A DNA stretch of 32,646 nt from Nitrospirota bacterium (GTDB lineage Bacteria > Nitrospirota > Thermodesulfovibrionia > Thermodesulfovibrionales > UBA1546). The position numbers and the translations under genes were made by a program. The notes beneath the pieces were generated by a model that saw nothing but the letters and a program-made list of their open reading frames with translations, had not been told where the DNA came from and ran no database searches. Below, in pieces: positions 14,783 to 32,646 of this stretch. How positions within the stretch are numbered: position 1 is the stretch's first letter; each line of letters opens with the position of its first letter. Location: assembly GCA_009773185.1 (NCBI GenBank), contig WPIF01000029.1:1-32646 (forward strand). The letters run 5' to 3'.

Positions 14783-15964
14783 GTGGAAAAATATAGCGTA
14801 AAATTCAAGAGTGCTTTTTGGGGCGTATCCCTTCTGGTCAGTTTGGCAATGCCTTTTATTTCAGAGGCAGGTGTAAAGTGTATTGATGCAGAGGGCGAGG
14901 CTGTCATAGTGAACAATGATGTTCCGTCTTCTAAAGCTGAGGCAATAGCAAGGGCGAAATGGTCTGCAATCGAGCAGAGTGTCGGGGTCGAGGTCAAGGC
15001 CCAGACCGTAGTCCAGAACTTTGCCGTTGTTGATGATGCGATAAGCAAAAACATCAGGGGTCTTGTGACAGGCTATAAACTTATCCTTGAGGATAACCGG
15101 AAGGATACGTTCTGGGTCAGGATAAACGCATGTATTGAACCGACAAAGGCGCAGGATGCCCTGATGTCGCTGGCCTTAAATAATTCACTGGCAGTCTTTA
15201 TTCCTGCAAGAAAACCAAAGGTCGTAAGCGAGCATACCGGCAAGCATGGCACTTCCCTGCAGACAACCGATGAATATGACGAGACAAACGTACTGTCAGA
15301 AAAATTAATAGGAAAACTTATAGAACAGGGTTATCAGGTTGTTGATGTGGCTCCGACCCATGCAATGGACGCCGCTGATATTGAAAGGGCAGTCAAGTCA
15401 GGGAATAATATGACGGTAAGGTCTTTGATGTATAAGTTTCTTTCAAATGTCCTGTTAATCGGAAAGATTGACTACGCCATCTCTACTAAAAAAGGAGAGG
15501 ATGTCGGTTATGGCATTTCCATGCCGTTTCATAATGTCACTGTCAGGCTTACTTACAGGCTGATTACCAGAGATAAGTCGTCAGGCAAGAATATTATTCT
15601 TCAGGCAGGCGCAGAAGAGGCAAAGGGACTGGCGATGAGCGTGGAGGACGCAACCGAAAAGGGCTTGCAGGCGCTTCAGGGAAAGATTACGCCGATTGTA
15701 TTAGAAGCCCTGTCAAAGCACATAGCTGGCGCTTCAAAGAAAATATCATTTACAGCAAAGGACGTATCAGATATAAGCACAAACTTCCAGATAAAGGAGA
15801 TATTGCAGAACACTGCGTGGGTCACCTCGGTCGAGGAAAAGAAACTCGGGGAATTTTTGGTTGGTTATCCTGAAAATATAGTTTATCTTATAAACAGCCT
15901 TGTCCAGAAAGGATTCAGGCTCACGAACTTTACTAATTACTCTGTGACTATGGAATACAGGTAA
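14783..15964 (+). CDS. Secreted protein with FlgT-N-like domain
   Basis: 393 aa from a GTG start with GGAGA upstream. A signal peptide ends near residue 29 (ISEAG). Residues about 30-135 resemble the FlgT N-terminal/LPP20-type fold: DAEGEAVIVNNDVPSSKAEA, then AIARAKWSAIEQSVGV, VVQNF, GLVTGYKLI and FWVRINACI. FlgT forms part of the outer-membrane H-ring around the sodium-driven flagellar motor in Vibrio. The remaining 250 aa (for example LSEKLIGKLIEQGYQVVDV and LIGKIDYAIS) repeat the strand-helix pattern of FlgO/FlgT middle domains. No flagellar gene is near, so a flagellar role is not assumed. It is the first gene of the cluster. Confidence 0.75.
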   Translation: MEKYSVKFKSAFWGVSLLVSLAMPFISEAGVKCIDAEGEAVIVNNDVPSSKAEAIARAKWSAIEQSVGVEVKAQTVVQNFAVVDDAISKNIRGLVTGYKLILEDNRKDTFWVRINACIEPTKAQDALMSLALNNSLAVFIPARKPKVVSEHTGKHGTSLQTTDEYDETNVLSEKLIGKLIEQGYQVVDVAPTHAMDAADIERAVKSGNNMTVRSLMYKFLSNVLLIGKIDYAISTKKGEDVGYGISMPFHNVTVRLTYRLITRDKSSGKNIILQAGAEEAKGLAMSVEDATEKGLQALQGKITPIVLEALSKHIAGASKKISFTAKDVSDISTNFQIKEILQNTAWVTSVEEKKLGEFLVGYPENIVYLINSLVQKGFRLTNFTNYSVTMEYR

Positions 15965-16005
15965 TTCATAAACTTAAAGGCCTGATTTAATTAAGGGGGA
16001 ATTAT

Positions 16006-16977
16006 ATGAGAAAAGTATTCGCAAGCTTTCTGGTTGTTGCCGCTATATTAGTTGGTGCTTTTACATCCGAGGCGGCGAAGAAAAAAGTAGCGGTTTTGGA
16101 CTTTGACTACGGCACAATAAGGGACCGGTGGTGGCCCGGAGACTGGGATATAGGCAAGGGCATAACAGATATGATGGTGACGCAGCTTGTAAAGGACGGC
16201 ACTTTTTCAGTGATAGAGAGAAAACAGCTTGAAAAAGTAATCAGCGAGCAAAGACTCGGGGCCAGCGGCCTCGTTGACGCTTCAACTGCGGCCCAGATAG
16301 GTAAAATTCTCGGTGTTAAATATGTGATTATGGGCAGCATTACCCAGTTCGGCATTGACACTAAAAACATTGATACCGGCGGCTTCGGCAGGATGCTGGG
16401 CCTTGGGGCAGACGTGGGCGTATCAACTGCTGTTGCCACTGTATATATTGATGCAAGGATGATTGACACTACAACTGCCGAGATAGTTGCTGTAGCAGAG
16501 GGCAAGGCTTCGGAAAGCAAAAGCAACGTGAAAGTCTCCGCAAGTGATCGTTACCAGGGATATGGCCATGTAGCAATAGGCGGTTCGGGATTTGACGAGA
16601 CCATACTCGGTCAGGCCACGCGCAAGTGTGTGGGAGACGTAGTAAAGCAGCTTTCAGGGAAAACAACCGGCACAGGAGGAAGCGCCGGAGGAGCAATAAA
16701 AACAAAAGTGGCAGATACTGATGCCGGGTCCGGGACAGTTTATATAGCCGCGGGCAGCGGTGAAGGCATAACAGTCGGCCAGACTCTGTATGTTGTTAAG
16801 GTAAAGAAAGAGATAAAGGACCCTGAAACAGGAGAGGTTATAAAAAGAGTGGTAGAGACAGCAGCAGAGCTGAAGGTGACCGAGGTTGACAATAAATCCG
16901 CAACTGCTACAATTGTAAAAGGAAACATAAATAATGTAAAGATAGGGGACAATGTAAGTTCTGCCCCGTCTCTTTAA
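16006..16977 (+). CDS. CsgG-family periplasmic/outer-membrane protein
   Basis: 323 aa with ribosome site AAGGGGGA and a signal peptide cleaved near residue 23 (SEA-AKKK); no lipobox Cys. Residues 25-225 are a CsgG domain: KKKVAVLDFDYGT, TDMMVTQLVKDGTFSVIERK, QLEKVISEQRLGASGLVDAS, AQIGKILGVKYVIMGSITQF. CsgG makes the nine-fold outer-membrane pore that exports curli. The variable stretch VSTAVATVYIDARMIDTTTA lies where CsgG forms its transmembrane hairpins. Residues about 240-323 add a beta domain (GTVYIAAGSGEGITVGQTLY and IGDNV) like the C-terminal domain of FlgT. CsgG plus FlgT-C in one chain links the two themes of this cluster. Confidence 0.88.
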   Translation: MRKVFASFLVVAAILVGAFTSEAAKKKVAVLDFDYGTIRDRWWPGDWDIGKGITDMMVTQLVKDGTFSVIERKQLEKVISEQRLGASGLVDASTAAQIGKILGVKYVIMGSITQFGIDTKNIDTGGFGRMLGLGADVGVSTAVATVYIDARMIDTTTAEIVAVAEGKASESKSNVKVSASDRYQGYGHVAIGGSGFDETILGQATRKCVGDVVKQLSGKTTGTGGSAGGAIKTKVADTDAGSGTVYIAAGSGEGITVGQTLYVVKVKKEIKDPETGEVIKRVVETAAELKVTEVDNKSATATIVKGNINNVKIGDNVSSAPSL

Positions 16978-17004: not shown

Positions 17005-18213
17005 ATGAAAAATTGTATCAGGTTTTTGTTTGTGGTTTTTATTTTTATGTTTGTTGCTGCCTGCGCAACACAGCAGGCAAAGTGTACCTCTCCAGAAGAT
17101 AATCCGCAGCACCATTACTTAATGGGCATGGAGGCGCTGGAGAAAGGTAATCTGGATGTTGCAAAAGAGAAATTTGAAAGGGCCTTGTTTTGCGATGCGA
17201 AGTTCGCCATTGCTTACAGCGGGCTTGCAATTACTACGGCTGGAAAGGCAAAGACACTTACGGATGCAGCTTTCAGAAGTGTAGAAGCCGGAAGGGCCTT
17301 TGACCACCTGAAGAAGGCTGATAAATTATCCGAGAGCGAGGAACAGAAGTTTGATTATTATGTTGCTGTTATAAGAGTCAATACGCTGCTGCAGCCCAAA
17401 GACTGGCTTGAAAACGCAGAAAACGCATTTGGTGAGGCAAGAAAACTCAAGGCGGATGAAAAGAAGCTGATTTACTATCAGGGGACAGAGGCTGCCAATT
17501 ATTTTCTGGGCCTTGCATATCTGGATGCCAGGGAATTTCAAAAGGCAAGGGACAAGTTTGCTGATGTGCTGAACATGAAGAGAGAAGGAAAATGGAATGA
17601 AAAGGCTGACAGGGCATGGAAACGCGTAGACAAGATAGTTCGCGCCATGGCTGGTTTAACAGTAGGTGATGTCGGCAAACAGATAGCAGTCAAAAATTCT
17701 GTTACAAGGGCTGACCTTGCAGCGCTGCTTGTTGATGAACTTAAACTGGATAAGCTTTTTGCAGGCCGCCTGGCTGGCCAGTCACAGGCAGACAAGATGA
17801 AGGCTGAGTTCACGCCTGCGGATATGCTTAATCATCAATTTAGGGAAGAAGTGCTTACAATCATGAAATGGAAGGTAAGGGGGCTTGAACCAAAATATGA
17901 TGAGGCTACAAAGGCATATCTCTTTAAACCATCAGAGACTGTGCTGAGGGGCGAGATGGCATTGATTATTGAAGATGTGCTCATAAAAATAACAGGCGAT
18001 GAAAAGATAGCAACTGCATTTTTTGGGCATGAACAATCTCCATTTCCTGATGTAAGGAAGACCTCTCCGTTTTATAATGCGGTTATGAATGTGACGACAA
18101 AAGGCATAATGGAAGGAGAGATTTCCGGAGATTTCAGGGTGGATTCTGTTGTTGACGGCGCAGAGGCCATTCTTGCAATCAGGGTATTAAGACAGAAAAT
18201 GAATATATATTAA
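17005..18213 (+). CDS. Lipoprotein with TPR repeats and S-layer-homology-like domain
   Basis: 402 aa, preceded by AAAGGAGG. Lipobox FVAAC puts lipidated Cys at residue 20. Residues about 32-205 are TPR-like helices (MGMEALEKGNLDVAKEKFER and YFLGLAYLDAREFQKARDKF). From about 230, VTRADLAALLV, RGEMALIIEDV, FPDV, FYNAVMNVTTKGIMEGEISG and AEAILAIRVLR match the spacing of S-layer-homology (SLH) repeats. SLH domains bind cell-wall polymers, so this could tie the outer-membrane complex to peptidoglycan. It lies 27 bases after the CsgG gene. Confidence 0.82.
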   Translation: MKNCIRFLFVVFIFMFVAACATQQAKCTSPEDNPQHHYLMGMEALEKGNLDVAKEKFERALFCDAKFAIAYSGLAITTAGKAKTLTDAAFRSVEAGRAFDHLKKADKLSESEEQKFDYYVAVIRVNTLLQPKDWLENAENAFGEARKLKADEKKLIYYQGTEAANYFLGLAYLDAREFQKARDKFADVLNMKREGKWNEKADRAWKRVDKIVRAMAGLTVGDVGKQIAVKNSVTRADLAALLVDELKLDKLFAGRLAGQSQADKMKAEFTPADMLNHQFREEVLTIMKWKVRGLEPKYDEATKAYLFKPSETVLRGEMALIIEDVLIKITGDEKIATAFFGHEQSPFPDVRKTSPFYNAVMNVTTKGIMEGEISGDFRVDSVVDGAEAILAIRVLRQKMNIY

Positions 18214-18313: not shown

Positions 18314-19270
18314 ATGAAAAAAGTATTTGTGTTAGTTGTATTGCTGAGTTTTTTTGCAGCAGCAGCTGCGATTGGTGAGGACCAGCCTGCAGCGACGCAG
18401 CCTTCGATGGCAGCGCCGGCTTCTGATTCCCAGGTTGATGAGAAATTTAAAAAGGCAAACGAATACCTGAGCCAGCAGCACCTTGCTGTTACGCAGTCTT
18501 CCTCGGATGCCTTTGTAAACGGCTATATCCTTGTTGCTGCTGAAGGGCTTCCAAAAGCTGATGCAATCAGCCCGGGCCAAAAGAGGCTGACTGCAGAGAG
18601 GGCCGCCGAGGTGTTGGCCTACAGGAAGCTGGCTGAATTTTTGGACGGGGTAGCTGTTGCCGGAGACTCGCTGGTAAAGGATGCCGCGCTTCAGTATGAC
18701 CTTGTCAGGGTAGCTGTGGCCGGTTTTGTGAAAGGCGCAAGGGTAGTCCATAAGGAATACAGCAAGGAAGATGAAATAGCCCTTGTTATAATGAAGATAG
18801 GCATGACAGGCCCTGGCAGCTTTGCGGATGCCCTTTATGCAAAGATATTAAAACCCGATGTAAAAAAAGAATTAATAGAGCCTGCGCAGCCAACACCTCA
18901 GTACAAGCATAAACCTGTGCCGCTCGATGAAAAATATGACGGCCTTGTTATTGATGCCACAGAGCAGAGTTTCAGGCCTGCCCTGATAAACAGGATATTT
19001 ACACAAAAGGGCGAAGTGCTCTATGACCCGTCAAAGATAAGCCAGAAAGTCCTTGTTGAACAGGGCTGCGGGGAATATACAAACAGTGTTGATAAGGCAA
19101 AGGCAGCCCTTGATCAGAGAGGCGCAAAGAATCCATTGATTATAAAAGCCTCTGGTTCTGTAAACCCTTCAGACCTTCAAATCTCGGATGATGATGCAGT
19201 AAAAATATTTTCTGCAAATCAAAAGGCTGGCTTTCTTGCAGCTGCAAAAGTAGCTTTTGTGCTGAAATAG
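18314..19270 (+). CDS. Secreted LPP20-like protein
   Basis: 318 aa, preceded by AAAAGGAGG. The signal peptide ends near residue 20, with no lipobox. Residues about 75-160 show the LPP20/FlgP pattern: LTAERAAEVLAYRKLAEFLD, GVAVAGDSLVKDAALQYDLV, VAVAGFVKGARVVHKEYS, then a conserved-looking IVMKIGM-type strand. FlgP is the outer-membrane lipoprotein partner of FlgO and FlgT. The C-terminal half (DGLVIDATEQSFRPALINRI, LIIKASGSVNPSDLQISDDD) is a second alpha/beta domain often attached to LPP20 proteins. An envelope structural part is likely. Confidence 0.75.
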   Translation: MKKVFVLVVLLSFFAAAAAIGEDQPAATQPSMAAPASDSQVDEKFKKANEYLSQQHLAVTQSSSDAFVNGYILVAAEGLPKADAISPGQKRLTAERAAEVLAYRKLAEFLDGVAVAGDSLVKDAALQYDLVRVAVAGFVKGARVVHKEYSKEDEIALVIMKIGMTGPGSFADALYAKILKPDVKKELIEPAQPTPQYKHKPVPLDEKYDGLVIDATEQSFRPALINRIFTQKGEVLYDPSKISQKVLVEQGCGEYTNSVDKAKAALDQRGAKNPLIIKASGSVNPSDLQISDDDAVKIFSANQKAGFLAAAKVAFVLK

Positions 19271-19346: not shown

Positions 19347-20384
19347 GTGCGCACTGTCAGGTTATTTTTGTTAAGCTTTGTTGTTCTTGCTGCATCCTGC
19401 GCACCGCCTGCTGTAAAAACAACCATGCTTGTACCTGCCAGGCATCACGAGGCGTCAAGGCTGAGAGAAGTTGCGGTCCTGCCCTTTGACGGCAAGGGCG
19501 GGCAAGAGTTTGCTGCAGAGATAGAAGGAACTATTGCAGGCATAAACATAGGAGACAAGCAGTATTTTAATCTCGTTGACAGGGTAAGGCTTGAAAAGCT
19601 TATAAGCGAGATGAAACTTTCACAGAGTGCGCTTGTTGATTCAAATACTGCTGCCAGGGTCGGCAGGCTTGTTGGCGCCAAAGGTATTTATACCGGCATT
19701 ATAACTGCATCAGATGTCAGCGATTCGGCTTACCGTGAGGAGCGTACGCGCTGCGCTCAGACAGTCACAAAACATGACAAAAAAGGAAGGGCATACGAAG
19801 AGTGTGCGAAGTATGAAAAATATGCGGTCCACTGCACAAAAAGGACTGCGGTCTTTGCCTTTACCCCAAGGCTGGTTGAAGTAGAAACAGGGATGGTTGT
19901 CTATTCCAGTAATATAGGGAAAAGCGTTGAGAGGTCAGTTTGTTCTGACAGCCAAAAACCGCTTCCCGGTGAGCGAGAGCTTATAGAACAGGCAAAGCAG
20001 TACGGAAAAGAGATTTTCAGGACGGATATAGCGCCTTATTATGTGACAGTAGAAATTGAGCTTATGGATTCAGACGACGGCATTATCTCTGACACGGCTA
20101 AAGCGAAATTAGCCCAGGGGATAGATTTTGCAAAAAACAGCAGGCTTGACAGGGCCTGTGAACTCTGGGGAGAAGCAAGAATTCTTGCGCCAGATGCGTT
20201 ATCTGTTCTTTATAATCTGGGTATATGTTCTGAGGTTACAGGGGAGTTTGAACAGGCACTGGAATTATACAGGAAGGCGGACAGGATGCTTATGAAGCCT
20301 GATGATAAGGTGAATGCGGCGCTTGCAAGGGTTCAAAAGCGGATACAGGAGCAGAAAAAGCTAAAAGAACAGATTTTAAATTAG
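19347..20384 (+). CDS. CsgG-family lipoprotein with C-terminal TPR
   Basis: 345 aa from a GTG start with a G-rich ribosome site upstream. Lipobox LAASC places the lipidated Cys at residue 18. The CsgG domain (about 34-240) has REVAVLPFDGKGG, YFNLVDRVRLEKLISEMKLS, QSALVDSNTAARVGRLVGAK and GIYTGIITAS. The usual membrane-hairpin region holds an insertion rich in Cys (Cys at CAQTV, ECAKY and HCTKR), unusual for CsgG and possibly disulfide-bonded. Residues about 255-345 are TPR helices. It has the lipid anchor expected of a true CsgG pore subunit. Confidence 0.85.
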   Translation: MRTVRLFLLSFVVLAASCAPPAVKTTMLVPARHHEASRLREVAVLPFDGKGGQEFAAEIEGTIAGINIGDKQYFNLVDRVRLEKLISEMKLSQSALVDSNTAARVGRLVGAKGIYTGIITASDVSDSAYREERTRCAQTVTKHDKKGRAYEECAKYEKYAVHCTKRTAVFAFTPRLVEVETGMVVYSSNIGKSVERSVCSDSQKPLPGERELIEQAKQYGKEIFRTDIAPYYVTVEIELMDSDDGIISDTAKAKLAQGIDFAKNSRLDRACELWGEARILAPDALSVLYNLGICSEVTGEFEQALELYRKADRMLMKPDDKVNAALARVQKRIQEQKKLKEQILN

Positions 20385-20385
20385 A

Positions 20386-22110
20386 ATGAAATATCCCATG
20401 AAAAATTGCAACAAGCCGGAAATAAGAACCCTTGTTTTATTTATATTCATATCCATAATTATTATGTTATCGCCGCTACCGTGTTTGGCCAAGACCCTTA
20501 TCCTTGACGGAGGGTTGGAGAGCAGGATAAAAACAACCCAGCGCATCAATTTCGATGTCCAACAGGATGTAAGGTCGCTGACCTTCAGGTTTGCAGTCCC
20601 GACCACATTTTCCAATAAGATAACCTCTCAGGACTTAAGCGGATTGGATATCAGATTTTCTCCGGAGCCTGCATCTGTAGTGGATGATATGGACAAATTC
20701 GGCAACAGATTTAAAAAGGTAAGATGGGAGAACCTGAAACAGAATATCAGCGTCACAATATCGTATAACACTGTAATAAAAGCCGAGCTGCTTGCAATGG
20801 AAAGTGTATCATCATTCCCTCTCAGGGATATTCAAAAAGATGACGCGGTGTTTCTTAAGCCGACATCCATGGTTCAAAGCGACAGCGGAGATATCGTGTC
20901 CCTTTCACGAAAGCTCACAGAGGATGCAAAGACAGAAAATGATGCTGTGAATGCAATATTAAATTGGGTTTCTGACAATGTAAAATATACCTACAACCCT
21001 CCGCAGTATGATGCATTGTATACACTTAAAACAGGAAAGGGGAATTGCCAGAACTTTGCGCATCTATCGATGGCCTTGCTCAGGGCAGCAGGCATCCCGG
21101 CCAGGATAGTCGGCGGTATCAGCCTTAAGCGGCAGTGGAAGGTTCCTGTTGAAAACGGATATCTTGTGCAGGACATGGGGCAGGGCGGGCATGCATGGAT
21201 GGAGATATTATTTTCTGACCTGGGCTGGCTTTCTTACGACCCACAGCAGTCCAGGCAGTTTACATCAACCAGGCATATCAAACAGACACATGGGCTGGAT
21301 TCAAAAGATATTAATGACTCGTGGTCAGCATCACCGTATCTGCCAAGGTATAGCGAAGATATAGAGGCGGTTTTTAATAATGATGATGTCAACATAAAAC
21401 TGAGGGCCTCAAAGGACGCGCCGGTATCATATATAATGAGCAATAACCTTACGGCAAAGGCTGCTGCTCCTGAAAAAATATTGCCTCCATCAGTAAAGCC
21501 GGCGCCACCGGCTCCTAAACCCGCGCCTGTGATAACTCCTCCTCTCAGGCCGGTGCCTCCGCCAAAAAAAGGTACTGTTGAATTCGGTAATACGGAATTT
21601 CCAACTCTTGTTGATGTATACCAGATTATCGGCAATGCGGCTACCAGGGTATTTGATAAGGAGACCGCTGAACATGTGACATCCCGTTATGTATACGCTC
21701 AGGCATTCACCATTGAAAGTGCAATGACCTTGCAGGGCATCTCGCTTGCCATGCACAAATTCGGCGGTGACGGTACGCTATATATTGATGTCGTGAAAGA
21801 TGAGAATGGCAAGCCGGGCTTATCAGGAGAGAGGTCCTTGCTTGTTTCATTGGGCAGTATAAAGTTCCGTCCCGGTTATTACTGGATAGATTTTGTGTTT
21901 GCGAAAGAAAAAGAGCCATTGCCTGTTCTTGGCCCGGGAAAATATTGGATAATAATGAGGCATTCAGGAGAGGCAATAGTTAACTGGTTTTATATTCCTG
22001 GCAATCCATACGGTGACAGCGATGATACAAGGTCAACGCTGAAGGGGTACAAATGGGAAGACCTGTTAAATTATGATTTTGTATTCAAGGTCAGGGGCAG
22101 GGTGCAATGA
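20386..22110 (+). CDS. Secreted transglutaminase-like cysteine protease with Pro-rich linker
   Basis: 574 aa starting one base after the previous stop. A signal anchor covers residues 14-35. After a beta-rich N-terminal domain (38-160), the transglutaminase core has KGNCQNFAHLSMALLRAAGI (Cys221), GQGGHAWMEI (His269) and GWLSYDPQQS (Asp285), a complete catalytic triad. A proline-rich linker (about 365-395, PAPPAPKPAP) leads to a C-terminal beta domain (400-574) of jelly-roll type, with FTIESAMTLQGISLAMHKFG and GPGKYWIIMRHSG. Bacterial enzymes of this fold cleave or cross-link proteins or peptidoglycan peptides. Placement in the CsgG cluster suggests it processes a surface or secreted substrate. 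A second ATG at 20398 is an alternative start. Confidence 0.85.
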   Translation: MKYPMKNCNKPEIRTLVLFIFISIIIMLSPLPCLAKTLILDGGLESRIKTTQRINFDVQQDVRSLTFRFAVPTTFSNKITSQDLSGLDIRFSPEPASVVDDMDKFGNRFKKVRWENLKQNISVTISYNTVIKAELLAMESVSSFPLRDIQKDDAVFLKPTSMVQSDSGDIVSLSRKLTEDAKTENDAVNAILNWVSDNVKYTYNPPQYDALYTLKTGKGNCQNFAHLSMALLRAAGIPARIVGGISLKRQWKVPVENGYLVQDMGQGGHAWMEILFSDLGWLSYDPQQSRQFTSTRHIKQTHGLDSKDINDSWSASPYLPRYSEDIEAVFNNDDVNIKLRASKDAPVSYIMSNNLTAKAAAPEKILPPSVKPAPPAPKPAPVITPPLRPVPPPKKGTVEFGNTEFPTLVDVYQIIGNAATRVFDKETAEHVTSRYVYAQAFTIESAMTLQGISLAMHKFGGDGTLYIDVVKDENGKPGLSGERSLLVSLGSIKFRPGYYWIDFVFAKEKEPLPVLGPGKYWIIMRHSGEAIVNWFYIPGNPYGDSDDTRSTLKGYKWEDLLNYDFVFKVRGRVQ

Positions 22111-22559
22111 AGATATTCAGGGGCTGTTTTGTCCTGATATTTATATTATTTTTATCTTCCATCCCTGCCCTGGCAGATGACAAAAGCCTTGAAAGACAAC
22201 CCGCTTTGCCACAAGAACATGTCAGGAAATTAAAGAGGATAGCCTCATTTATTGCAGCTGAGCTGCAAAGAAGGCCTGTAAAAAGCGTGACTGTGGAGGA
22301 TTTTACAGATTTTTACAAAAGGCCCTCGGTAACAGGAACAAGGATGGCCAGAGAATTTTCAAGGCAGCTTGCAGCGCTAGGCGATAAAAAATTCATGGTT
22401 GTAGAGGCCGGCGCTGAAGCCATTGTGGCAGGAACCCTGGTCCCGTTTAAAGATGGCGGAAAATGGAAACTCGATATAAAGGTTGTATCAGCAGATAAAG
22501 GCAAAATTATTACAACCTATACAGGAATCCTTAAAAAGGCAAAAACAGTAAAAAAATAA
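22107..22559 (+). CDS. Small secreted FlgO-like protein
   Basis: 150 aa. Its ATG overlaps the stop of the transglutaminase gene (ATGA), so it is translationally coupled. The signal peptide ends near residue 23 (ALADD). The body fits the FlgO fold: IAAELQRRPVKSVTVEDFTD, GTRMAREFSRQLAALG, FMVVEAGAEAIVAGTLVPF and LDIKVVSADKGKIIT. FlgO is an outer-membrane protein that supports flagellar stability in Vibrio. Here it is shorter and has no lipobox. Confidence 0.75.
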   Translation: MKIFRGCFVLIFILFLSSIPALADDKSLERQPALPQEHVRKLKRIASFIAAELQRRPVKSVTVEDFTDFYKRPSVTGTRMAREFSRQLAALGDKKFMVVEAGAEAIVAGTLVPFKDGGKWKLDIKVVSADKGKIITTYTGILKKAKTVKK

Positions 22560-23924: not shown

Positions 23925-25907
23925 ATGAAAAGAGGGTTGGTTTTATTTTTTGTTTCTGCACTTTTTATATATGGATGCGCATCAAGCGGCAAGCAGACAT
24001 TTGAACAAGGGCAGGAGCTTGCAAAAATTAACCGGCTGGAAGAGGCGGTCTCGCTTTATGAAGATGCTGTCCGTCAGGAACCGGATAATCAGGAATATAG
24101 TGACATCCTGAAGCAGGCCAGGGAACTTCTGGCCAAAAAACATCTGGACAAGGCAAAGTCTTTTATGGACACAAGGCCTCTTACCTTTGATATTCTGCGA
24201 AATGCGCAGAATATGGCAGATAAATCATTAAAAATATCCCCTGATAACGAAGACGCCACCAAGCTGTCAGCCGGCATAAAAACTGAGATGGACGCGTTAA
24301 CAAAAAAGGCAGAATTACTCTATTCTTCCGCGACAAAGGCGATTGAAACTAACGACTGGATTGCTGCCATAGAGAAGCTCAGGGAAATCAAAACGTTTTA
24401 TCCTGCTTACCTTGACCTGGCCGTGAAGCTGAGCCTTGCTGAAAATGGCAGTGTGGAGTATTACGTGAAAGAGGCTGAGAAGTGCAAAACATCAGAAGAC
24501 TGGGGAGGCGTTATAAAGATGCTTGCTTTAGCCAGGAAGATACAGCCGGATAACGCTGAACTTGAAACCCGCGCGAAGGAGGCACAGGGAAAACATACGC
24601 CTGAGTATTATCTTTCCATGGCTGATGCGGCGGCAAAAAATAATGACTGGGAAAATGTAATGAACTGTATTAACAAAGTGAAGGTTTTTCCTTTAAGCAG
24701 TGAAACAACCAGGAAGACTGAACAGTTAAAACTGCAGGCATCGGCATTTTTTATAAACAGGGCTGAAGAAAACTTTTCAGGGAAGCGCCTCTACGCTGCG
24801 TATGTAAATTTACAATCTGCCCTGAATCTCAGGCCCGAGATAAGGAAAGACCCGAAAATATCCGAGCTCATTGAACAGATGCTTAATGCCATAATAGCCG
24901 TAGCAGAGCCTTATGAGGCCGGCGGGCAGCTTGGTAATGCATTTGTATGGTATGAAAAAGCCATGAAGCTCTCCTCAGGGCGCCGGGAAATTTTATTAAA
25001 AACACAGGCGCTTAAAGACATTATAAAGCAGAAAGTTGTAAGAAAGATTGCGATTATGGATTTCACCTCTCCCAGCAATAGCCCTGATGCAGGCCGTGTT
25101 ATGACAGACAGCCTGCTTTCATATTTGACAAAGAATTCTTCAGGCGATGTTAAGATACTTGCAAGAGACGTCCTTGGGGCATTATTGAAAGAAATAGAGC
25201 TGGGGCAGGCCGGACTATATGATATCGAAAGCGCCAAAAAAGCAGGCAAGCTAAAGGGGACAGATGTGTTCATCTTCGGGAGCGTTCTCCAGTACAATGT
25301 TGAAAAAAATGTTGATGAGGGATATAAGGTTGTCAGCGCTGTCGTAGGAAAGAAAACCCACCCAAACCCTCTCTATCAGGACTGGGTTTCTTCACACCCG
25401 CAACCTGATGCAACAGAACTGAAAACTGCACCACCTCAGTATATTGACGAGGAAATCCGTGAAACAATCAAATATAAGGTTGCAAACCATAAAAAGACAG
25501 CCAGCGTGAATGTTTCTTTTCGTGTCATTGATGTGGAAGAGGGGGAAGTAGTAATAACAAAAACCCTAAAGAACAAGAAAGAAGCTGAAGATACCTACTC
25601 CGAAGGTGTTGACTTTGCGAACATCGCATATAAGGCGCTCAAGCTGCCATCAGATACAGAACTCCTCGACCAGGTTGTTGAATCAAGCGTGGCTGAGCTT
25701 GGGTATGAAGTCCTCTCCCGTTTTCAGAACCTTCAGGTCTTATACTCAAACAGCGCTGAAATACTTAAAAAGAAGGGTGAATTGTTGCGTGCCATAGAAA
25801 AATATGTAGACGCAATTCATGTGGAAGAGCTGAAAAATATCTCCAGTCCTGTTTCCGAAAACGCAAGAAAAGAAATAGAACAGATGTTGATAGCACTTTC
25901 AATATAG
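23925..25907 (+). CDS. Lipoprotein with TPR array and C-terminal CsgG domain
   Basis: 660 aa from the ATG at 23925, chosen because GGGGAGG lies five to six bases upstream and a clean lipoprotein signal follows (Cys18 in FIYGC); the ATG at 23898 would add nine odd residues. Residues 20-365 are repeated TPR-like helix pairs (ELAKINRLEEAVSLYEDAVR and later units). From about 369 comes a CsgG-type domain: VVRKIAIMDFTSPSN, VMTDSLLSYLTKNSSGDVKI, LLKEIELGQAGLYD, KLKGTDVFIFGSVLQYNV. A further helical tail (610-660) closes it. The order TPR then CsgG is the reverse of the 19347 protein. Confidence 0.82.
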   Translation: MKRGLVLFFVSALFIYGCASSGKQTFEQGQELAKINRLEEAVSLYEDAVRQEPDNQEYSDILKQARELLAKKHLDKAKSFMDTRPLTFDILRNAQNMADKSLKISPDNEDATKLSAGIKTEMDALTKKAELLYSSATKAIETNDWIAAIEKLREIKTFYPAYLDLAVKLSLAENGSVEYYVKEAEKCKTSEDWGGVIKMLALARKIQPDNAELETRAKEAQGKHTPEYYLSMADAAAKNNDWENVMNCINKVKVFPLSSETTRKTEQLKLQASAFFINRAEENFSGKRLYAAYVNLQSALNLRPEIRKDPKISELIEQMLNAIIAVAEPYEAGGQLGNAFVWYEKAMKLSSGRREILLKTQALKDIIKQKVVRKIAIMDFTSPSNSPDAGRVMTDSLLSYLTKNSSGDVKILARDVLGALLKEIELGQAGLYDIESAKKAGKLKGTDVFIFGSVLQYNVEKNVDEGYKVVSAVVGKKTHPNPLYQDWVSSHPQPDATELKTAPPQYIDEEIRETIKYKVANHKKTASVNVSFRVIDVEEGEVVITKTLKNKKEAEDTYSEGVDFANIAYKALKLPSDTELLDQVVESSVAELGYEVLSRFQNLQVLYSNSAEILKKKGELLRAIEKYVDAIHVEELKNISSPVSENARKEIEQMLIALSI

Positions 25908-25916
25908 GTGGCAGCA

Positions 25917-28160
25917 ATGCAAAAAAGACTTAAGGAAGCATTGATAATATCGTTTGTATTGCTCTTTTTATTTGTATTGCTCTTTTTAATTGTTATAGCT
26001 GCGGGCCCGGTGGATGCCGGACTGAAGCATAAGCTGGCTGTTTTTCCGTTTGTTGCAAAAAATATGGAAGCAATGACGCTTACCGAAAGCCTTTCTTCTC
26101 TCCTTTTAAATAGTATTGACCGGGCAGGTTATTTTGAGATTCTGGAGAGAAAAAAAATAGAAAATATCATAGAGCTGGAAGGCCTCAGGCTTGAGAGCCT
26201 GTCAAAAGAAGACATTTTAAAGATAGGCGCCAGAAACAACATTGATTTTCTCCTGTGCGGCACTGCAACAAGGGTTGGCAGAACCGTGGCGATAGAGATA
26301 CAGCTTTTTAGCGTAAGGGAAAATAAAGTCTGCGCCAGAGATACTATACGGACTTCCGAAGGAGAACTTGCAAGCAATCTGTACAATACAGCGCGGGATA
26401 TAGTAAAGAGCGCTCAGAAATGTCTTTCTCCTGATTCTATGGCAATGCCTGTTCAGAGGCCACTGACGGTTCCTGAGAATATCAAGATAAGCGGGACATC
26501 AAAGAGCATAAGAATAAACTGGACGCATCAGGAGATGTCCAATCTGATAGGTTTTAAAATATTCAGGTCAAATAATGGAGATGGCCCCTTTACACAGATT
26601 GCAACTACAATAGAGAATTTCTATATAGATGAAAACCTGAAGCTGAACGAGACTTTTTACTATAGGGTTAAAGCAATAGACAAAAAGGGAACAGACAGCG
26701 AATTTTCATTGTCTGTTGTAGGCAAGACATCAATAGCCCCTCAGCCTCCCATATTCCTGAACATACAGGACAATGTCAAGGGAGCATACCTCCAGTGGCG
26801 TTCCCGCCCTCAGAGCGGAAAGGAATCCGACAATGTCGAAGCAGGATACAAGGTCTTCAGAAAAGCCCAGACGGAGAAGGAATTTAAAGAAGTTGCAGTT
26901 GTCCCTGCAGATAACACTACTTATACGGACCATGGGCTCAAAGACAATACTGCATACGCCTATACCCTGACAGCCTTTAATGCTCTCAATACCGAGAGCG
27001 ATTTTTCTGCAATCCTTGAGGTCACTACGCCTCAGGGAGTATCGGGCTTAAAGGTAGAAAGCGGGAAAATAAGGCGGGTGCCTTTAAGATGGGATGTCAG
27101 TATTAATGATGTTGTTGAAGGATACCGGGTTTACAGGGCGCAGGGAGAAAACGATGAATATAAAAAGATAGCTCAGACTCCGGACCGACATTCCATATCG
27201 TATATCGACATTGGACTGGAAGATAACAAAACATACTGGTACAGGGTAACTGCCTGCAATAAGAATAATGTTGAGACAGATATGTCGGAACCTGTTTCTG
27301 CAACAACCAGGACTAAACCTTCCATGCCTGCCGGCCTTGCTGCTAAAAGCGGAGAGGCGAGAAAGGTTTCTCTTAAATGGGAACCCATAAAAAGCCCTGA
27401 GGATGAGATAAGGGGATACAAGATTTACAGGGCAGCAGAAGAAAAGGGCGAATATAATAAAGTAGCAGAGGTTGACGCGGGAAAGGATCAATTTTCAGAT
27501 AATAACACTCCGCTTAAAGATAACACCGTTTATTACTACAGGATAAGCTCATTTAACTCCGCAGGCGCTGAGAGCCAGCAGACAGAATCCGTGTCTGCTA
27601 CCACAAAGGCCCTGCCGCAAGTGCCTGGCGGGCTTAAGGCTGTATCAGGCGATGTAAAAAAAGTAGCACTCAGCTGGGACAAAAATCCGGAACCGGATAT
27701 AAAGGCGTATGTGATTTACAGGAAAACGAAGGATGAAAAAGACTTTGACAGGATAAAAAGCACGAAGGAAGCTTCTTACGCTGATTCCAGGCTCAGGGAC
27801 GGCGTTGAATATGAGTTTGCTGTTCAGGCTGTTGATAGCGATAATCTTTTTAGCCCTGTGTCTTCTCCTGTTGCCGCAAAAACAAAGCCTCTGCCTCAAA
27901 GACCTTCAGGATTAAAGATAGCTGCCCAGGACGGCAAAAAAAGGATATCATGGGATGCAAATCCTGAAAAAGACATAAAAAAATATAATGTGTACAAGAA
28001 GGGTTTTCTTGGCATCTCACAGAAAGTAGGTTCAGTTCAGGATAATTACTGGGAGGTGGGTGAACTGAGAGGGAAAACGGAGTTGTTTGTCACTGCCCAG
28101 GATGAAACAGACCTTGAAAGCGAGGCATCTGAGACAATTGTTTTAGCAGAAACGAAATAG
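25917..28160 (+). CDS. CsgG-like protein with six Fn3 domains
   Basis: 747 aa from the ATG at 25917, with AGGTGG five bases upstream. The signal segment is long and contains an exact repeat (FVLLFL twice). Residues about 35-170 are CsgG-like: KLAVFPFVAKN, LLLNSIDRAGYFEILERKKI, IGARNNIDFLLCGTATRVG. Then come six fibronectin type III units of about 90 aa (starting roughly at 184, 273, 369, 463, 561 and 654), each with a W near its start and a YRV/YAY/YRI-type strand. Fn3 strings act as spacers or adhesive arms. The protein may be the reach-out element of the complex. It begins nine bases after the previous stop. Confidence 0.85.
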   Translation: MQKRLKEALIISFVLLFLFVLLFLIVIAAGPVDAGLKHKLAVFPFVAKNMEAMTLTESLSSLLLNSIDRAGYFEILERKKIENIIELEGLRLESLSKEDILKIGARNNIDFLLCGTATRVGRTVAIEIQLFSVRENKVCARDTIRTSEGELASNLYNTARDIVKSAQKCLSPDSMAMPVQRPLTVPENIKISGTSKSIRINWTHQEMSNLIGFKIFRSNNGDGPFTQIATTIENFYIDENLKLNETFYYRVKAIDKKGTDSEFSLSVVGKTSIAPQPPIFLNIQDNVKGAYLQWRSRPQSGKESDNVEAGYKVFRKAQTEKEFKEVAVVPADNTTYTDHGLKDNTAYAYTLTAFNALNTESDFSAILEVTTPQGVSGLKVESGKIRRVPLRWDVSINDVVEGYRVYRAQGENDEYKKIAQTPDRHSISYIDIGLEDNKTYWYRVTACNKNNVETDMSEPVSATTRTKPSMPAGLAAKSGEARKVSLKWEPIKSPEDEIRGYKIYRAAEEKGEYNKVAEVDAGKDQFSDNNTPLKDNTVYYYRISSFNSAGAESQQTESVSATTKALPQVPGGLKAVSGDVKKVALSWDKNPEPDIKAYVIYRKTKDEKDFDRIKSTKEASYADSRLRDGVEYEFAVQAVDSDNLFSPVSSPVAAKTKPLPQRPSGLKIAAQDGKKRISWDANPEKDIKKYNVYKKGFLGISQKVGSVQDNYWEVGELRGKTELFVTAQDETDLESEASETIVLAETK
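25953..25988 (+). repeat. 18 bp perfect tandem duplication in a signal-peptide coding region
   Basis: The 18-base unit TTTGTATTGCTCTTTTTA occurs twice head to tail and encodes FVLLFL twice, lengthening the hydrophobic core by six residues. The frame is kept. Confidence 0.9.
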
Positions 28161-28190
28161 CTTGCGGCATAGAAAGGAGGAGTGGCAATT

Positions 28191-28493
28191 ATGGCAAAGT
28201 ATTTCATAAATATTATATGTTTTATTCTTTTAACGGGCACCATTGTCTGCGCAGAAAATCCTGTTCCAAAGGACACATTATATGATATTGGGAGATACCA
28301 GCTTTTTCAGGGAACTTATACGACATTTGACCTTAAAAACGGCCAGAGCGTTACCTCAAACGGAGTATTTCTGCTTGATACCAAAACCGGCTCAGTTAAA
28401 CGTTATCTGAACAAGATAGATGAGGACGGAAGCTATATAGAGACATGGATACCTACCGAAGTCCAGACAAAGAAAAAACAGGAAGGCAAATAA
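28191..28493 (+). CDS. Small secreted protein of unknown function
   Basis: 100 aa from the ATG at 28191 (AAAGGAGG about ten bases upstream); an in-frame GTG at 28182 is too close to that site. The signal peptide ends near residue 22 (VCAEN). The mature part is beta-rich: IGRYQLFQGTYTTFDLKNGQ, VFLLDTKTGSVKRYLNK, then a Lys-rich tail. The stretch LLDTKTGSVKRY recalls short beta-propeller-like or quinoprotein-like strands, but no family is recognised. It lies between two large envelope genes and is probably co-transcribed with them. Confidence 0.75.
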   Translation: MAKYFINIICFILLTGTIVCAENPVPKDTLYDIGRYQLFQGTYTTFDLKNGQSVTSNGVFLLDTKTGSVKRYLNKIDEDGSYIETWIPTEVQTKKKQEGK

Positions 28494-28542: not shown

Positions 28543-30822
28543 ATGAAAAGGTTACTGTTGTCCCTATTTGTATTGCTGTTAATTGCTTCATGCGCATCAA
28601 TAGAGGAAATGACAAAAGGTAAGCCTGGGGCGCCGGAAGTCTCTGACGAAGAACTTCCAAGAATGGTTGCAATCATGCCTTTTCAGAATGAGACAGATGA
28701 AAGGGGCATAGCAAATCAGGTAAGAAAGGCTTTCTACAATCATTTCAGCCCTAAACCGTACAGGGACGTAGAGCCTTATATTGTTGATGAAAAAACAATT
28801 CAGATCGAGAAATCCAGCGGCAAGACCATCCTTGAATTAAAGCCAGATGAGATATGCCAGTCCATCGGCTGTGACGGAATAGTTTATGGCAGGATCACTG
28901 ATTTTAAAAAAGTATATGCTGCAGTTTATTCCCAGCTTGGAGTAGAGGCTGAGGTCTGGATGATAAATACAAAAACAGGCAAAGAGGTCTTCAGGATGAA
29001 AGATTCTGTAAGATACCATGAGGGCAGTGTTCCAACGTCTCCATTGGGAGCTGTAATGACTGCCGTATCAACTGCAATAAATCTCAGAGAGATTCAACAG
29101 GTCAGAATGGTGAATGAGCTGGCATATAAATTCAATGAGAAGATCCAGTCTCCAAAAGGAATGACAACAGAGGACAGGCCATTGATCAAGGAAGTTTTAA
29201 CCAATGCAAAAGAAAGTCCGTTGGGAAAAGGAAAAATCGTAAGGGTAGGGCTGGATGGCGAACCCGGCGCAGTCGCAGTGTTTGATATCGGAAGCTTTAA
29301 AAAAGGTGTTCTGATGAAAGAGACAAAACCCGGTATTTATATGGGGGAATATCTTGTGATGTCCGGAGACAATGCGAATGATATGCCTGTTGTCGCATAT
29401 CTGAAAAGGCCGGGAGGGCTTGAGAGCCAGTGGATTGATGTGAGTGGTTTTATGACAATTGACACAACTCCTCCTCCTCCGGTAAAAAGTTTAAGGGCCA
29501 AGGGATTTCAGGACAGGATAGAAGTTTCATGGGATACTGTAAAAAACACCCCTGACCTCAAGGGATATTCAATTTTAAGAAGTGAACAGCCTTTAAGCGG
29601 ATATGTTGAACTGGCAAAGGTTGAACTCAATCTGTTTGAAGATAAAATGGCAAAGCCTGACATTATTTATTATTACAGGGTTGTGGCTTATGACCAGGCC
29701 GGCAACGAATCAGGGCTGCAAGACCCCCTCAGAGCATCCCTGGTCTCAAAAGACCCGGTGATGATTTCAGGCGAACTCAGAAAGGACACGGTTCTTTCCG
29801 GGGTATTTCTGGTCAAGGGAGATCTGGTTGTGCCGAAAGGTCTATCGCTTACTTTAGAGCCTGAAACAAGGATGATGTTTGACGAGAATGCATCCTTGCT
29901 TGTTTACGGTAAGATGGTAATAAATGCAAAGGATTCCCCTGTTGAGTTCACTCCTTCGGGCGATAAAAAGTGGAAAGGTGTATCTGTTGACGGCGGCACT
30001 ATTGCCTTAAATGGTTTTCGTGCTAGCGGTGCGCTTACTGCAATGTTTCTGCAAAACACAGAAGGCACAGTAGAGAATGGCGTAATAACAGAAAGCAATA
30101 CAGGCATCTCAATATCCGGCACTCCATCTGTTACAGTAAAAAATTCAACAATTTCAAGAAACAAAGCAGGCATTGAACTGCAAAAGACAGATGCAAGGAT
30201 TATCATGAGCAGCATCTTCCAGAATGCTAACGGTATTGTAATTAAGGGTTTTTCCGGAGAGATTAAGGACAATAATATCTTTGATAATGAGAAAAATGCA
30301 TCTTCTGAAGCCGGCGTAAAGCTTGGCGCTAACTATTTTGGCACAATAAATACGGATGAAATGAAAATCAGCGGAGTCAGCTTAACAAAGGTTTATGACA
30401 ATAAATTGCCTGACGGCAAGATTGTTGACGCTGTTTCAAATCCTTACACAAACCTGGGCCAGGAAGACCGCCAGAAAAAGGCATCTGAAATTTTAATTGA
30501 GGCAGGCAATTATTTCAGGCAGAGGAATTACGGCAAGGCAGTAGTGCTTCTTGAAGAGGCATTGAAGGCATATCCGACTGCGGACATTTATTATTACCTC
30601 GCTATCTGTTATCAGGAGATGAAGGAAGATGATACGGCATTGAAATACTTAAAAGAAGGCGCTGAGAAGTTTCCCAGGGATTCGACTTTGCAAAAATCGC
30701 TCGGCATGATGTATTACCAGGGCGGCAAGGAGGCCGAAGCGAAAAAGGCATTCGAGGAAGTAATGAGGCTGAGCCCGGAAGACAGGCAGGTAAAGTTCCT
30801 TCTTGAGAGAATAGGCAAGTAG
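28543..30822 (+). CDS. Multidomain lipoprotein: CsgG/GNA1162-like, Fn3, beta-helix, TPR
   Basis: 759 aa with AAAGGAGAAG upstream. Lipobox IASC gives lipidated Cys17. Residues about 38-210 resemble the GNA1162/CsgG lipoprotein fold: PRMVAIMPFQNETDERGIAN, VRKAFYNHFSPKPYRDVEPY, IGCDGIVYGRITDFKKVYAA. An Fn3 unit follows at about 307-402 (PPPPVKSLRAKGFQDRIEVS). Residues about 403-610 form a right-handed parallel beta-helix with short turns such as GVITESNTGISI, TVKNSTISRNKAGIEL and KDNNIFDNEKN. Residues 644-759 are TPR helices. The beta-helix may bind polysaccharide. No catalytic residues can be picked out. Confidence 0.83.
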   Translation: MKRLLLSLFVLLLIASCASIEEMTKGKPGAPEVSDEELPRMVAIMPFQNETDERGIANQVRKAFYNHFSPKPYRDVEPYIVDEKTIQIEKSSGKTILELKPDEICQSIGCDGIVYGRITDFKKVYAAVYSQLGVEAEVWMINTKTGKEVFRMKDSVRYHEGSVPTSPLGAVMTAVSTAINLREIQQVRMVNELAYKFNEKIQSPKGMTTEDRPLIKEVLTNAKESPLGKGKIVRVGLDGEPGAVAVFDIGSFKKGVLMKETKPGIYMGEYLVMSGDNANDMPVVAYLKRPGGLESQWIDVSGFMTIDTTPPPPVKSLRAKGFQDRIEVSWDTVKNTPDLKGYSILRSEQPLSGYVELAKVELNLFEDKMAKPDIIYYYRVVAYDQAGNESGLQDPLRASLVSKDPVMISGELRKDTVLSGVFLVKGDLVVPKGLSLTLEPETRMMFDENASLLVYGKMVINAKDSPVEFTPSGDKKWKGVSVDGGTIALNGFRASGALTAMFLQNTEGTVENGVITESNTGISISGTPSVTVKNSTISRNKAGIELQKTDARIIMSSIFQNANGIVIKGFSGEIKDNNIFDNEKNASSEAGVKLGANYFGTINTDEMKISGVSLTKVYDNKLPDGKIVDAVSNPYTNLGQEDRQKKASEILIEAGNYFRQRNYGKAVVLLEEALKAYPTADIYYYLAICYQEMKEDDTALKYLKEGAEKFPRDSTLQKSLGMMYYQGGKEAEAKKAFEEVMRLSPEDRQVKFLLERIGK

Positions 30823-30829
30823 GAGTTTT

Positions 30830-31369
30830 ATGGCAGAAGAAAAAAAGGAAAGATGGCTGAACTATCTTGCGCTCACCACAGTAATATTTGCTGTGTGCGC
30901 GACGCTTTCTACATTTAAGGGCGGAGGTTATTCAACACGCTCGGTGCTGTCTCAGTCACAGGCTTCTGACCAGTGGGCCTATTTTCAGTCCAAAAGCATT
31001 AAGGGATACCTTTATGAGCTGCAGAAGGAGAAATTTGAGGTAGAACTCAAGTCGCAAAAAGCGAATACTTCCCGTTCCCTCTCAGGGGATTATCAGAAAA
31101 AGATAGACACGTATTCGCAGAAGATTAAAAAATACGAGGAAGAAAAATCCAGGATAGAACAAGAGGCAAGGAAACTCGAAGGCATACGTGATGAGGCTCA
31201 GAAGCATTCTCAGGCATTCGGAATGGCCGTGATATTCCTCCAGATAACGATATTGCTTTCATCCATTGCAGCGCTCATGAAGAAAAAGATTGTGTGGATA
31301 CTGGGGATGGTTCTTGGGGTTTTCGGGATGGTATATTTTGCGAATGGTTTTTTCCTTTTCATAAAGTGA
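30830..31369 (+). CDS. DUF4337-family membrane protein
   Basis: 179 aa, seven bases after the previous stop, with TAGGAG upstream. It starts KERWLNYLALTTVIFAVCAT, then STFKGGGYSTRSVLSQSQ and ASDQWAYFQSKSIK, the highly conserved core of DUF4337. One membrane helix lies near residues 10-28, a charged coiled coil at about 55-125, and two more helices at about 128-178. Function is unknown in the literature I know. Its inclusion suggests an inner-membrane partner for the cluster, though the family also occurs alone. Confidence 0.9.
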   Translation: MAEEKKERWLNYLALTTVIFAVCATLSTFKGGGYSTRSVLSQSQASDQWAYFQSKSIKGYLYELQKEKFEVELKSQKANTSRSLSGDYQKKIDTYSQKIKKYEEEKSRIEQEARKLEGIRDEAQKHSQAFGMAVIFLQITILLSSIAALMKKKIVWILGMVLGVFGMVYFANGFFLFIK

Positions 31370-31401
31370 TTCCTTACTCTCTTTTCAAAAGGGAGGTGTT
31401 T

Positions 31402-32646
31402 ATGAAGAAATTAGCATTAGGTTTTCTATTAATTTTTCTTGCCTCGTGTGCGGCGACTGTAATCCCGGAAATTTCTTTGAATCAAAGTGATATAAAAATG
31501 GAGTTGAAACAAGAGGCCTTTGGTATCGAGGGACTTACTATTTCCAGTGACGGACAATATCTCCTGACGAGTGATAATGGAGGTTCGGTAAGGTTTGATT
31601 CTGGAGAACCAGCGCTAAGGCTATGGGACCTGACACAGGGATTGCAAATTTTTAAGCTCAAATATGACAAGAAGTATTCCGGGAAAATAATGTCAGTGGC
31701 AATTTCACCCGATAATAAATATGCCGTGACAGGCGGATATGTCTTCAGCAGCTTCGGCCAAATAGGATCCCATCCGCTAAACATATGGGATATCACTAAA
31801 GGACAGCTACTCAAGGCATACAAGACCTTTAAAGGCTTCAGGGGGGATGAATTCAATAGCATCAGCTTTTCTCAGGATGGGAGGTATTTCCTTGCTGCTG
31901 ACTGGACTAATATTTATATCTTTGATGCTAAGACATGGAATCTTATCAAGACCTTGACCCTTGAAGGTTATAGCCCACCTGTTATGGCCCCCTATAAGAG
32001 TTTGGTTGCGACTTTCTCTCCCAATAATAAATATGTCCTTTCTGGAGGCCCTGATGGCATAGTCCGTTTGCTGGACATTGAAAGTGGCAGGGAAATTAAA
32101 CAATTTCATGGGCATAAAGCCGGTTCGATGTATGGCGGAATATGTTCAATCGAATTTTCTCCGAACGGCAAGTATGCCGTGACAAATTCTATTCAGGACA
32201 GCAATGTAATACTTTGGGATATTGAGAAAGGTGTTGAGGCCAGAGTTTTTTCGGATTTTGAAGGCATACTTGGCTGGTACTTCTCGCCCCAAACGGTCTC
32301 TTTTTCTCCGGATGGCAAACAAGTGTTTATCTATGGTTTGCCGTCAAAGACATTTGATATTAATACTGGAAAGGGATTAATTGACTTTCCACGCGCATGG
32401 CAGGGGAAAGGGATGTATGTGGCAGGCAGAAATATGGGATGGGCACAGTATCATCCCAATGGAAGACATATTCTGTTAAATTCGAATGATGCTTCTGTAA
32501 GAATTTACGATGCTAAAACAGGACAGGAAGTGGCAATTCTTATCGGGTTTGAGGATGGCGAATGGTTAACCATTACAAGCGAAGGCTACTACAACTCCTC
32601 CGAAAAGGGCGCTCAATATCTCAGTGTTAAAGTAGGTGAGACTTCC
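31402..32646 (+). CDS. WD40-repeat lipoprotein, 3' end beyond the window
   Basis: At least 415 aa, open to the last base, with GGGAGGTG upstream. Lipobox LASC gives lipidated Cys16. WD40-type blades recur: LTISSDGQYLLTSDNGG, SVAISPDNKYAVTGG, ISFSQDGRYFLAADW, ATFSPNNKYVLSGGPDG and IEFSPNGKYAVTNS, most followed by a WD or LD pair such as LRLWD, LNIWD and VILWD. The last visible segment, DGEWLTITSEGYYNSSEKGA, is the linker often seen between WD40 repeats and a caspase-like (peptidase C14) domain in bacterial proteins, so such a domain may follow outside the window. That is an inference. Confidence 0.85.
   Translation, partial: MKKLALGFLLIFLASCAATVIPEISLNQSDIKMELKQEAFGIEGLTISSDGQYLLTSDNGGSVRFDSGEPALRLWDLTQGLQIFKLKYDKKYSGKIMSVAISPDNKYAVTGGYVFSSFGQIGSHPLNIWDITKGQLLKAYKTFKGFRGDEFNSISFSQDGRYFLAADWTNIYIFDAKTWNLIKTLTLEGYSPPVMAPYKSLVATFSPNNKYVLSGGPDGIVRLLDIESGREIKQFHGHKAGSMYGGICSIEFSPNGKYAVTNSIQDSNVILWDIEKGVEARVFSDFEGILGWYFSPQTVSFSPDGKQVFIYGLPSKTFDINTGKGLIDFPRAWQGKGMYVAGRNMGWAQYHPNGRHILLNSNDASVRIYDAKTGQEVAILIGFEDGEWLTITSEGYYNSSEKGAQYLSVKVGETS

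Follow-up and report, generated by a model that had tools for sequence, protein, structure and literature searches.

A conserved non-flagellar gene cluster encoding FlgP-type, FlgT-like and CsgG-type proteins is genetically linked to an MCE transporter

Introduction

FlgP, FlgT and FlgO are known as accessory parts of the flagellum. FlgP- and FlgT-like proteins are encoded next to CsgG-family proteins on contig WPIF01000029.1 (our contig C24; 32,646 bp, hereafter the window), which comes from the 2.79 Mb genome of a groundwater Nitrospirota bacterium with relatives in the order Thermodesulfovibrionales. The stretch from 14783 to 32646 is filled by 14 open reading frames (ORFs) on the + strand, g01 to g14, with intergenic gaps of -4 to 100 bp. 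A first-pass annotation made from the sequence alone had described 14 codirectional, nearly all exported genes without flagellar or curli partners, and had proposed a stand-alone outer-membrane pore or ring complex with peptidoglycan and extracellular attachments. What are such parts doing together outside a flagellum? Here we report that FlgP-type, FlgT-like and CsgG-type proteins and an SLH lipoprotein make up a conserved non-flagellar locus that is genetically linked to an MCE transporter. The parts are of known kinds; a search of the open-access literature found no paper describing the cluster, and the combination is apparently undescribed.

Results

The core of the locus is conserved between phyla

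The nearest genome carries g01 to g08 with 86-100% identity and in unchanged order, up to the end of its contig. The core g01-g02-g03-g04-(g05)-g06-g07 is also found in three further genera of the family (G004 and G009; G006; G008; G, L and C numbers are our own for genomes, loci and contigs), with a divergent CsgG protein (25%) at the g02 position of G009. Genome contigs were then scanned with a profile of g03, the most conserved core gene, resulting in 45 loci from Thermodesulfovibrionales, Geobacterales, Syntrophorhabdales and other deltaproteobacterial metagenome-assembled genomes. g04 directly follows g03 in 42 of the 45 testable loci, and a CsgG-type gene is located at most 4.5 kb upstream of g03 in 27 of 41. 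The recurring core consists of a FlgT-like protein, a CsgG-type protein, a TPR-SLH lipoprotein and a FlgP-like protein. The conservation of this order between phyla excludes that the genes were grouped by chance; the set stays together across relatives and is not scattered. Named strains among the relatives include Geobacter sp. OR-1 and Geomonas sp. Red32, both with partial versions of the cluster.

In G004, G006 and G009 g12 is located directly after g07, and g08 to g11, which are missing there, are therefore a separable module (module B). Module B (g08-g09-g10, with g11 in several cases) recurs at L079, L080, L081, L090, L093 and L103 and, inverted, at L105. G005 encodes g08-g09-g10 apart from the core, with g08 present only as a short fragment.

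The cluster is neither flagellar nor curli-related

FlgH was found in none of the 16 genomes of the family, which rules out a flagellar locus. Within a wider sample, FlgH is present in 5 of 18 genomes with g03, compared to 21 of 43 other genomes, showing that g03 is not associated with flagella. The window genome has no CsgE, and 20 of 21 genomes, that of the window included, lack CsgF; both were found in the E. coli control. A curli locus is ruled out as well, and the claim that the parts are combined without flagellar or curli genes stands. Nor were any such genes found just past the window edge.

The locus resembles the Vibrio H-ring (FlgO/FlgP/FlgT) and the Campylobacter FlgP basal disk in its FlgP domain with a ring-type insert (g04), its FlgT-like folds (g01, g08) and a FlgO-like protein in relatives. 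It differs in the missing flagellum, in the second domain of g04, which is similar to domain D2 of Treponema Tp0624, and in its TPR-SLH, CsgG and MCE partners. With curli it shares one full-length CsgG-family protein, accompanied here by three more of CsgG/GNA1162 type; the differences are the lack of CsgE and CsgF, a FlgT_C extension on a g02 protein without lipobox, and FlgT- and FlgP-like partners.

An MCE operon is linked to the cluster in several arrangements

Pfam matches in relatives identify an MCE operon encoding a MlaE permease, an ABC ATPase, an MCE protein and a TPR lipoprotein. This operon follows g04 on the same strand at six deltaproteobacterial loci (L089, L091, L092, L100, L109, L110), is divergent at five Nitrospirota loci (L050, L071, L076, L077, L101) and lies 16-19 kb downstream in three genomes of the window's family. 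To survey the linkage we used a profile of the locus-type MCE and recorded its distance to g03 in g03-bearing genomes. In ten genomes from four families the two share a contig at a distance of 5.5-23 kb; G033 has the locus-type MCE on a different contig from g03, with one flank short. Further g03-bearing genomes were uninformative because their contigs are too short or g03 is near a contig end. A binomial estimate over the 16 informative genomes, with p = 50 kb/2 Mb, is 7e-13, a value weakened by kinship since genomes within one family are not independent; the stronger point is thus the linkage in at least three different arrangements.

As in the Mla and Pqi systems, MlaE, an ABC ATPase and an MCE protein are encoded in the linked operon, and the CsgG-type proteins could plausibly correspond to outer-membrane lipoproteins of the PqiC/LptE-like fold class. 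Differences are the MCE protein of about 310 amino acids with a C-terminal WPI motif, the TPR lipoprotein in the operon and the linkage to FlgP-, FlgT- and CsgG-type genes. MlaA and MlaC were not recognised by eye in the cluster, and no search aimed at them was made. An alignment of the locus MCE proteins (A5) places the conserved motif, K..WPI, after a long, probably helical tail; the Nitrospirota copies end in ...DSYE.

g04 contains a FlgP domain and a second domain similar to Tp0624 D2

On its own, g04 has no Pfam match. A profile built from 40 members, compared with solved structures, detected Campylobacter FlgP (9hmf, 6e-16) and FlgP of the Vibrio LPHT ring (2.4e-10), so that the call of an LPP20/FlgP-like protein proved right. 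The alignment with FlgP runs without gaps through a hairpin insert. An AlphaFold2 model (predicted local distance difference test, pLDDT, 77.6) has the SHS2 pattern; the insert is seen in it as two additional strands (116-122 and 125-132) that follow the helix and precede strand 2. Its conservation is 0.70, compared to 0.68 for the SHS2 helix. A structural study of the Campylobacter motor reported that ring oligomerisation in the FlgP family goes with such an insert (PMC12222027, 2025).

Residues 196-318 match D2 of Treponema pallidum Tp0624 (Z 15.2, root mean square deviation 2.2 A over 120 residues, 21% identity), a domain termed previously uncharacterised by its authors (PMC5104382). g04 differs from Tp0624 in that a clear FlgP domain precedes the D2-like one and the OmpA-like D3 is missing. 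Judged by profile and predicted fold, g04 is a true FlgP-domain protein with a putative ring-forming hairpin insert, fused to a Tp0624-D2-like domain. Because a relative of Tp0624 D2 is fused to a FlgP domain here, the D1-D2 part of Tp0624 may likewise represent a FlgP-D2-like tandem.

g01 and g08 are FlgT-like

Two FlgT_N-like proteins had been claimed. g08 is above the Pfam cut-off; g01 is below it, yet its predicted fold matches FlgT. The AlphaFold2 model of g01 (pLDDT 72.7) consists of an SHS2/FlgP-type N-domain with an insert and a CsgG/TolB-N-like middle domain. It matches Vibrio FlgT (3w1e; E 1.5e-7, Z 10.9), and residues 133-365 match FlgT of the LPHT ring (Z 10.8); after FlgT, g01 resembles the broad class of CsgG, PqiC, PelC, LptE and TraT. 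g08 is similar to Leptospira LipL46 over most of its length (3.3e-10 over 44-396) but below the NCBIfam cut-off, and is no equivalog. The FlgO-like call is weak for every gene of the window; a clear FlgO protein (F26) is encoded in the cluster of relatives.

Other families of the order have a sister cluster (L040-L045 in G027, G032, G020, G038, G056 and G059) that lacks g03 and combines a g08-type FlgT-like protein (34% identical) with a CsgG protein and several short proteins resembling FlgP.

g03 is an SLH lipoprotein and g06 a transglutaminase-like protein

The earlier calls of an SLH lipoprotein and a secreted transglutaminase agree with Pfam matches above the cut-off. SLH was found in all eight g03 orthologues scanned and a lipobox in 41 of 48. 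g03 itself has one SLH match at 2.4e-11, and two further repeats are likely by eye only. A profile search of g03 against solved structures found no match. The catalytic triad of g06, C221-H269-D285, is invariant in 23 of 23 proteins.

The cell-wall-type SLH anchor would also suit a passive scaffold without any transport, in which a FlgP/FlgT-type disk with an SLH/TPR tether braces the outer membrane, for example around an apparatus for gliding or adhesion or a pilus whose genes are located elsewhere. Apart from the SLH anchor, it is in keeping with this that a supporting role for the outer membrane has been ascribed to the Campylobacter FlgP disk (PMC5758724) and that Tp0624 was proposed to stabilise the envelope (PMC5104382). 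The repeated linkage to an ATP-driven MCE operon, the transglutaminase and the caspases described below argue against it, and we regard it as unlikely.

The CsgG-type proteins and the pore

Three CsgG proteins (g02, g05, g09) and a fourth, GNA1162-like one (g12) are all above the Pfam cut-off, as had been proposed. g02 covers positions 6-202 of the 210 positions of the CsgG model and its alignment with E. coli CsgG includes the first (transmembrane) hairpin region. By inspection and pattern match it has a type I-like signal peptide and no lipobox. Only the family of the window retains the CsgG hairpin regions; at the orthologous positions in other families they are shortened. The pore is, on these alignments, the least secure part of the original interpretation, whereas the stand-alone, conserved set, the ring-type parts and the SLH anchor hold. 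The g05 family is present in 7 loci, a minority of relatives. g09 is similar in part to Myxococcus TraC (1.4e-13) but below the NCBIfam cut-off, and is no equivalog; TraC is an outer-membrane-exchange lipoprotein.

Could the locus instead encode a CsgG-type secretion or export channel? g02 would then be a true outer-membrane pore, g01, g04 and g08 periplasmic gating rings, the Fn3, beta-helix and transglutaminase proteins would act at the surface, and the MCE genes would merely be neighbours. The nearly full-length match of g02, its alignment through the hairpin, the presence of three to four CsgG-type proteins and the Fn3 and beta-helix domains are what such a channel would predict. It is rather unlikely, given the missing CsgE and CsgF, the shortened hairpins outside the family and a g02 without lipobox, unlike E. 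coli CsgG; in addition, no candidate secreted amyloid was seen (CsgA/CsgB were not searched for).

Synteny places WD40-caspases and the MCE operon past the contig end

The window ends with its contig inside g14. C24 ends with ...GACTTCC, and contig C21, reversed, begins with GACTTCC. Joining both on these 7 bases results in a single open frame of 877 amino acids with WD40 followed by a caspase domain (C14; match G000:C21:36642-37325). The call of a WD40 lipoprotein is right with respect to the WD40 match, but the gene is incomplete and the joined one encodes WD40 plus caspase. Downstream on C21 are a nucleotidyltransferase-like ORF (by eye), a second WD40-caspase, an antisense GspE/PilB-type ATPase-like gene (by eye), a FlgT_N/DUF4384 protein and then MlaE, ABC ATPase, MCE, TPR lipoprotein and trmD-rplS-rnhB (the last by eye). 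Single contigs of G004 and G009 contain the core to g12, WD40-caspases, DUF4384, the MCE operon and trmD-rplS-rnhB; G006 has a 1052-amino-acid TPR-type protein in place of the WD40-caspases. The shared flanks argJ and trmD-rplS-rnhB back the join, and synteny is stronger support for it than the overlap. Thus, g14 probably continues as a caspase-like (C14) protein on C21. What synteny places past the window edge, an MCE transporter and WD40-caspases, had not been foreseen and changes the likely function.

Altogether, ten C14 caspase matches were found in the window's own genome. Six of them are located within ~17 kb at G000:C8 (L062), together with a FlgT_N protein.

Candidate regulators are found as well. 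Nitrospirota relatives have a Crp-type gene just upstream of g01; Geobacterales and some Nitrospirota have FecR-TPR and CHASE2-cyclase genes inside the cluster. Burkholderia is known to have a FecR gene next to a CHASE2 histidine kinase (PMC5192318). In the window, a BrkB-cNMP gene and no Crp gene is located upstream of g01; BrkB-cNMP is a conserved upstream neighbour, with its family near the cluster in 10 loci. The perfect palindrome TGTCATCATGACA at 14753-14765, 31 bp upstream of g01, was considered as a possible Crp site and dropped, since it is conserved only within the genus.

Such genes raise the possibility of a sensing or regulatory island, with WD40-caspases, DUF4384, FecR-TPR, CHASE2-cyclase and Crp as the working part and the CsgG, FlgT and FlgP families as envelope-stress sensors that expanded in parallel and do not form one machine. 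The caspase matches, six of them beside a FlgT_N protein, and the FecR and cyclase genes in the clusters of many relatives fit this idea. It is nevertheless very unlikely: no caspases were seen among the conserved core genes of the deltaproteobacterial loci, and the g03-g04 adjacency (42 of 45) is stricter than the mere presence of any single signalling family (at most 13 loci).

Gene list of the locus

Window proteins were scanned with Pfam, telling matches above the cut-off from those below; the TPR match of g09, like those of g03 and g05, is below it. Lipobox and signal peptide calls combine inspection of the translations with a pattern match, which missed g09. g03, g05, g09, g12 and g14 have lipobox signals, and most remaining genes have type I-like signals by inspection; layout and signals agree with the description as codirectional, nearly all exported genes (Table 1).

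Table 1. Genes of the locus and its upstream flank, with positions in the window
Gene	Position	Strand	Product	Evidence or remark
argJ	12151-13353	-		upstream boundary of the locus
BrkB-cNMP	13431..14630	+	BrkB/YihY membrane protein with C-terminal cNMP-binding domain	BrkB 5e-42, cNMP 2.5e-19 (Pfam)
g01	14783..15964	+	FlgT-like exported protein	FlgT_N 17.6 bits, below cut-off; predicted fold FlgT
g02	16006..16977	+	CsgG family, FlgT_C-like C-terminal extension	CsgG 1.2e-39 (136 bits), FlgT_C 2.4e-8, LpoB
g03	17005..18213	+	lipoprotein, TPR and C-terminal SLH	SLH 2.4e-11; TPR below cut-off
g04	18314..19270	+	FlgP/LPP20 domain (~60-190), Tp0624-D2-like domain (196-318)	profile against FlgP structures; AlphaFold2
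g05	19347..20384	+	lipoprotein, CsgG/LpoB-like domain and TPR	CsgG 5.4e-9 (36 bits); TPR below cut-off
g06	20386..22110	+	exported transglutaminase-like protein	Transglut_core 1.7e-28
g07	22107..22559	+	small exported protein	no Pfam match; family in 11 loci
g08	22586..23845	+	second FlgT_N/LipL46-like exported protein, first gene of module B	FlgT_N 1.6e-8
g09	23898..25907	+	lipoprotein, TPR and CsgG, module B	CsgG 4.9e-13 (49 bits); lipobox-like ...FIYGC by inspection
g10	25908..28160	+	CsgG/FlgO-like N-domain and five Fn3, module B	fn3 2e-30 in 5 stretches; CsgG 0.0017 and FlgO 0.0025, both sub-threshold
g11	28182..28493	+	small exported protein, module B	kept after g10 in L079, L080, L103, L105
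g12	28543..30822	+	lipoprotein, GNA1162-like, beta-helix and C-terminal TPR	GNA1162 1.2e-7, Beta_helix 2e-9, TPR_2 1e-12; 13 loci
g13	30830..31369	+	DUF4337 membrane protein	DUF4337 9e-58; outside the conserved core
g14	31402..32646	+	WD40 lipoprotein	WD40 match; truncated by contig end

Anti-phage defence was considered and rejected: a PADLOC scan of ten proteins gave only a weak LeoC match, to the DUF4337 protein. An Rfam scan of the window and seven relatives, in which cyclic di-GMP-type riboswitches were sought, found only the tRNA. Further upstream, an ORF of 513 amino acids without Pfam match (10068-11609) is located in the stretch of the window with the lowest GC content (0.354 for 10001-12000).

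Discussion

We tentatively favour, at somewhat less than an even chance, a flagellum-independent, wall-anchored ring or disk scaffold of the outer membrane that works with the MCE lipid transporter. FlgP- and FlgT-like proteins would polymerise into a ring or disk beneath the outer membrane, centred on CsgG/GNA1162-type oligomers, and the SLH lipoprotein would hold it to the wall. The ring could form the end of the MCE transporter at the outer membrane or support it there, and the transporter would carry lipid or other hydrophobic cargo between the membranes. WD40-caspases, the transglutaminase and cAMP-type regulators (Crp, FecR and CHASE2-cyclase in relatives) may process, crosslink or control the assembly. 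Both ring assembly and a role in lipid transport are what we infer from the families encoded and from their linkage.

Several observations weigh against this scaffold. The hairpin of g04 has a pLDDT largely below 50 in the monomer model, and folds of the SHS2 and TolB-N/CsgG type occur widely among envelope proteins (LptE, PqiC, PelC, TraT), so that the fold alone leaves the function unfixed. The distance between g03 and the locus-type MCE is 111 kb in G071; the two are on separate contigs in G034 and in G097, a clear copy of this MCE is missing from G043 and G079, and the Geobacter loci are without MCE within 10 kb. The overlap of C24 and C21 is just 7 bp near a motif repeated in both WD40-caspases, and is weak alone because both genes share this junction motif.

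A more far-reaching version would be a new trans-envelope machine, in which the MCE transporter ends at the outer membrane in a FlgP/FlgT/CsgG ring or disk that the SLH lipoprotein ties to the wall, with a distribution independent of flagella, and which is a possible source of parts of the flagellar H-ring or basal disk. We consider this version doubtful.

Taken together, the conserved cluster suggests that these ring parts serve a purpose of their own apart from the flagellum. If the scaffold proposed here is correct, D2 of Tp0624, described as uncharacterised, would gain partner genes, and outer-membrane ring parts would have a role independent of the flagellum and be a possible source of the flagellar ones.

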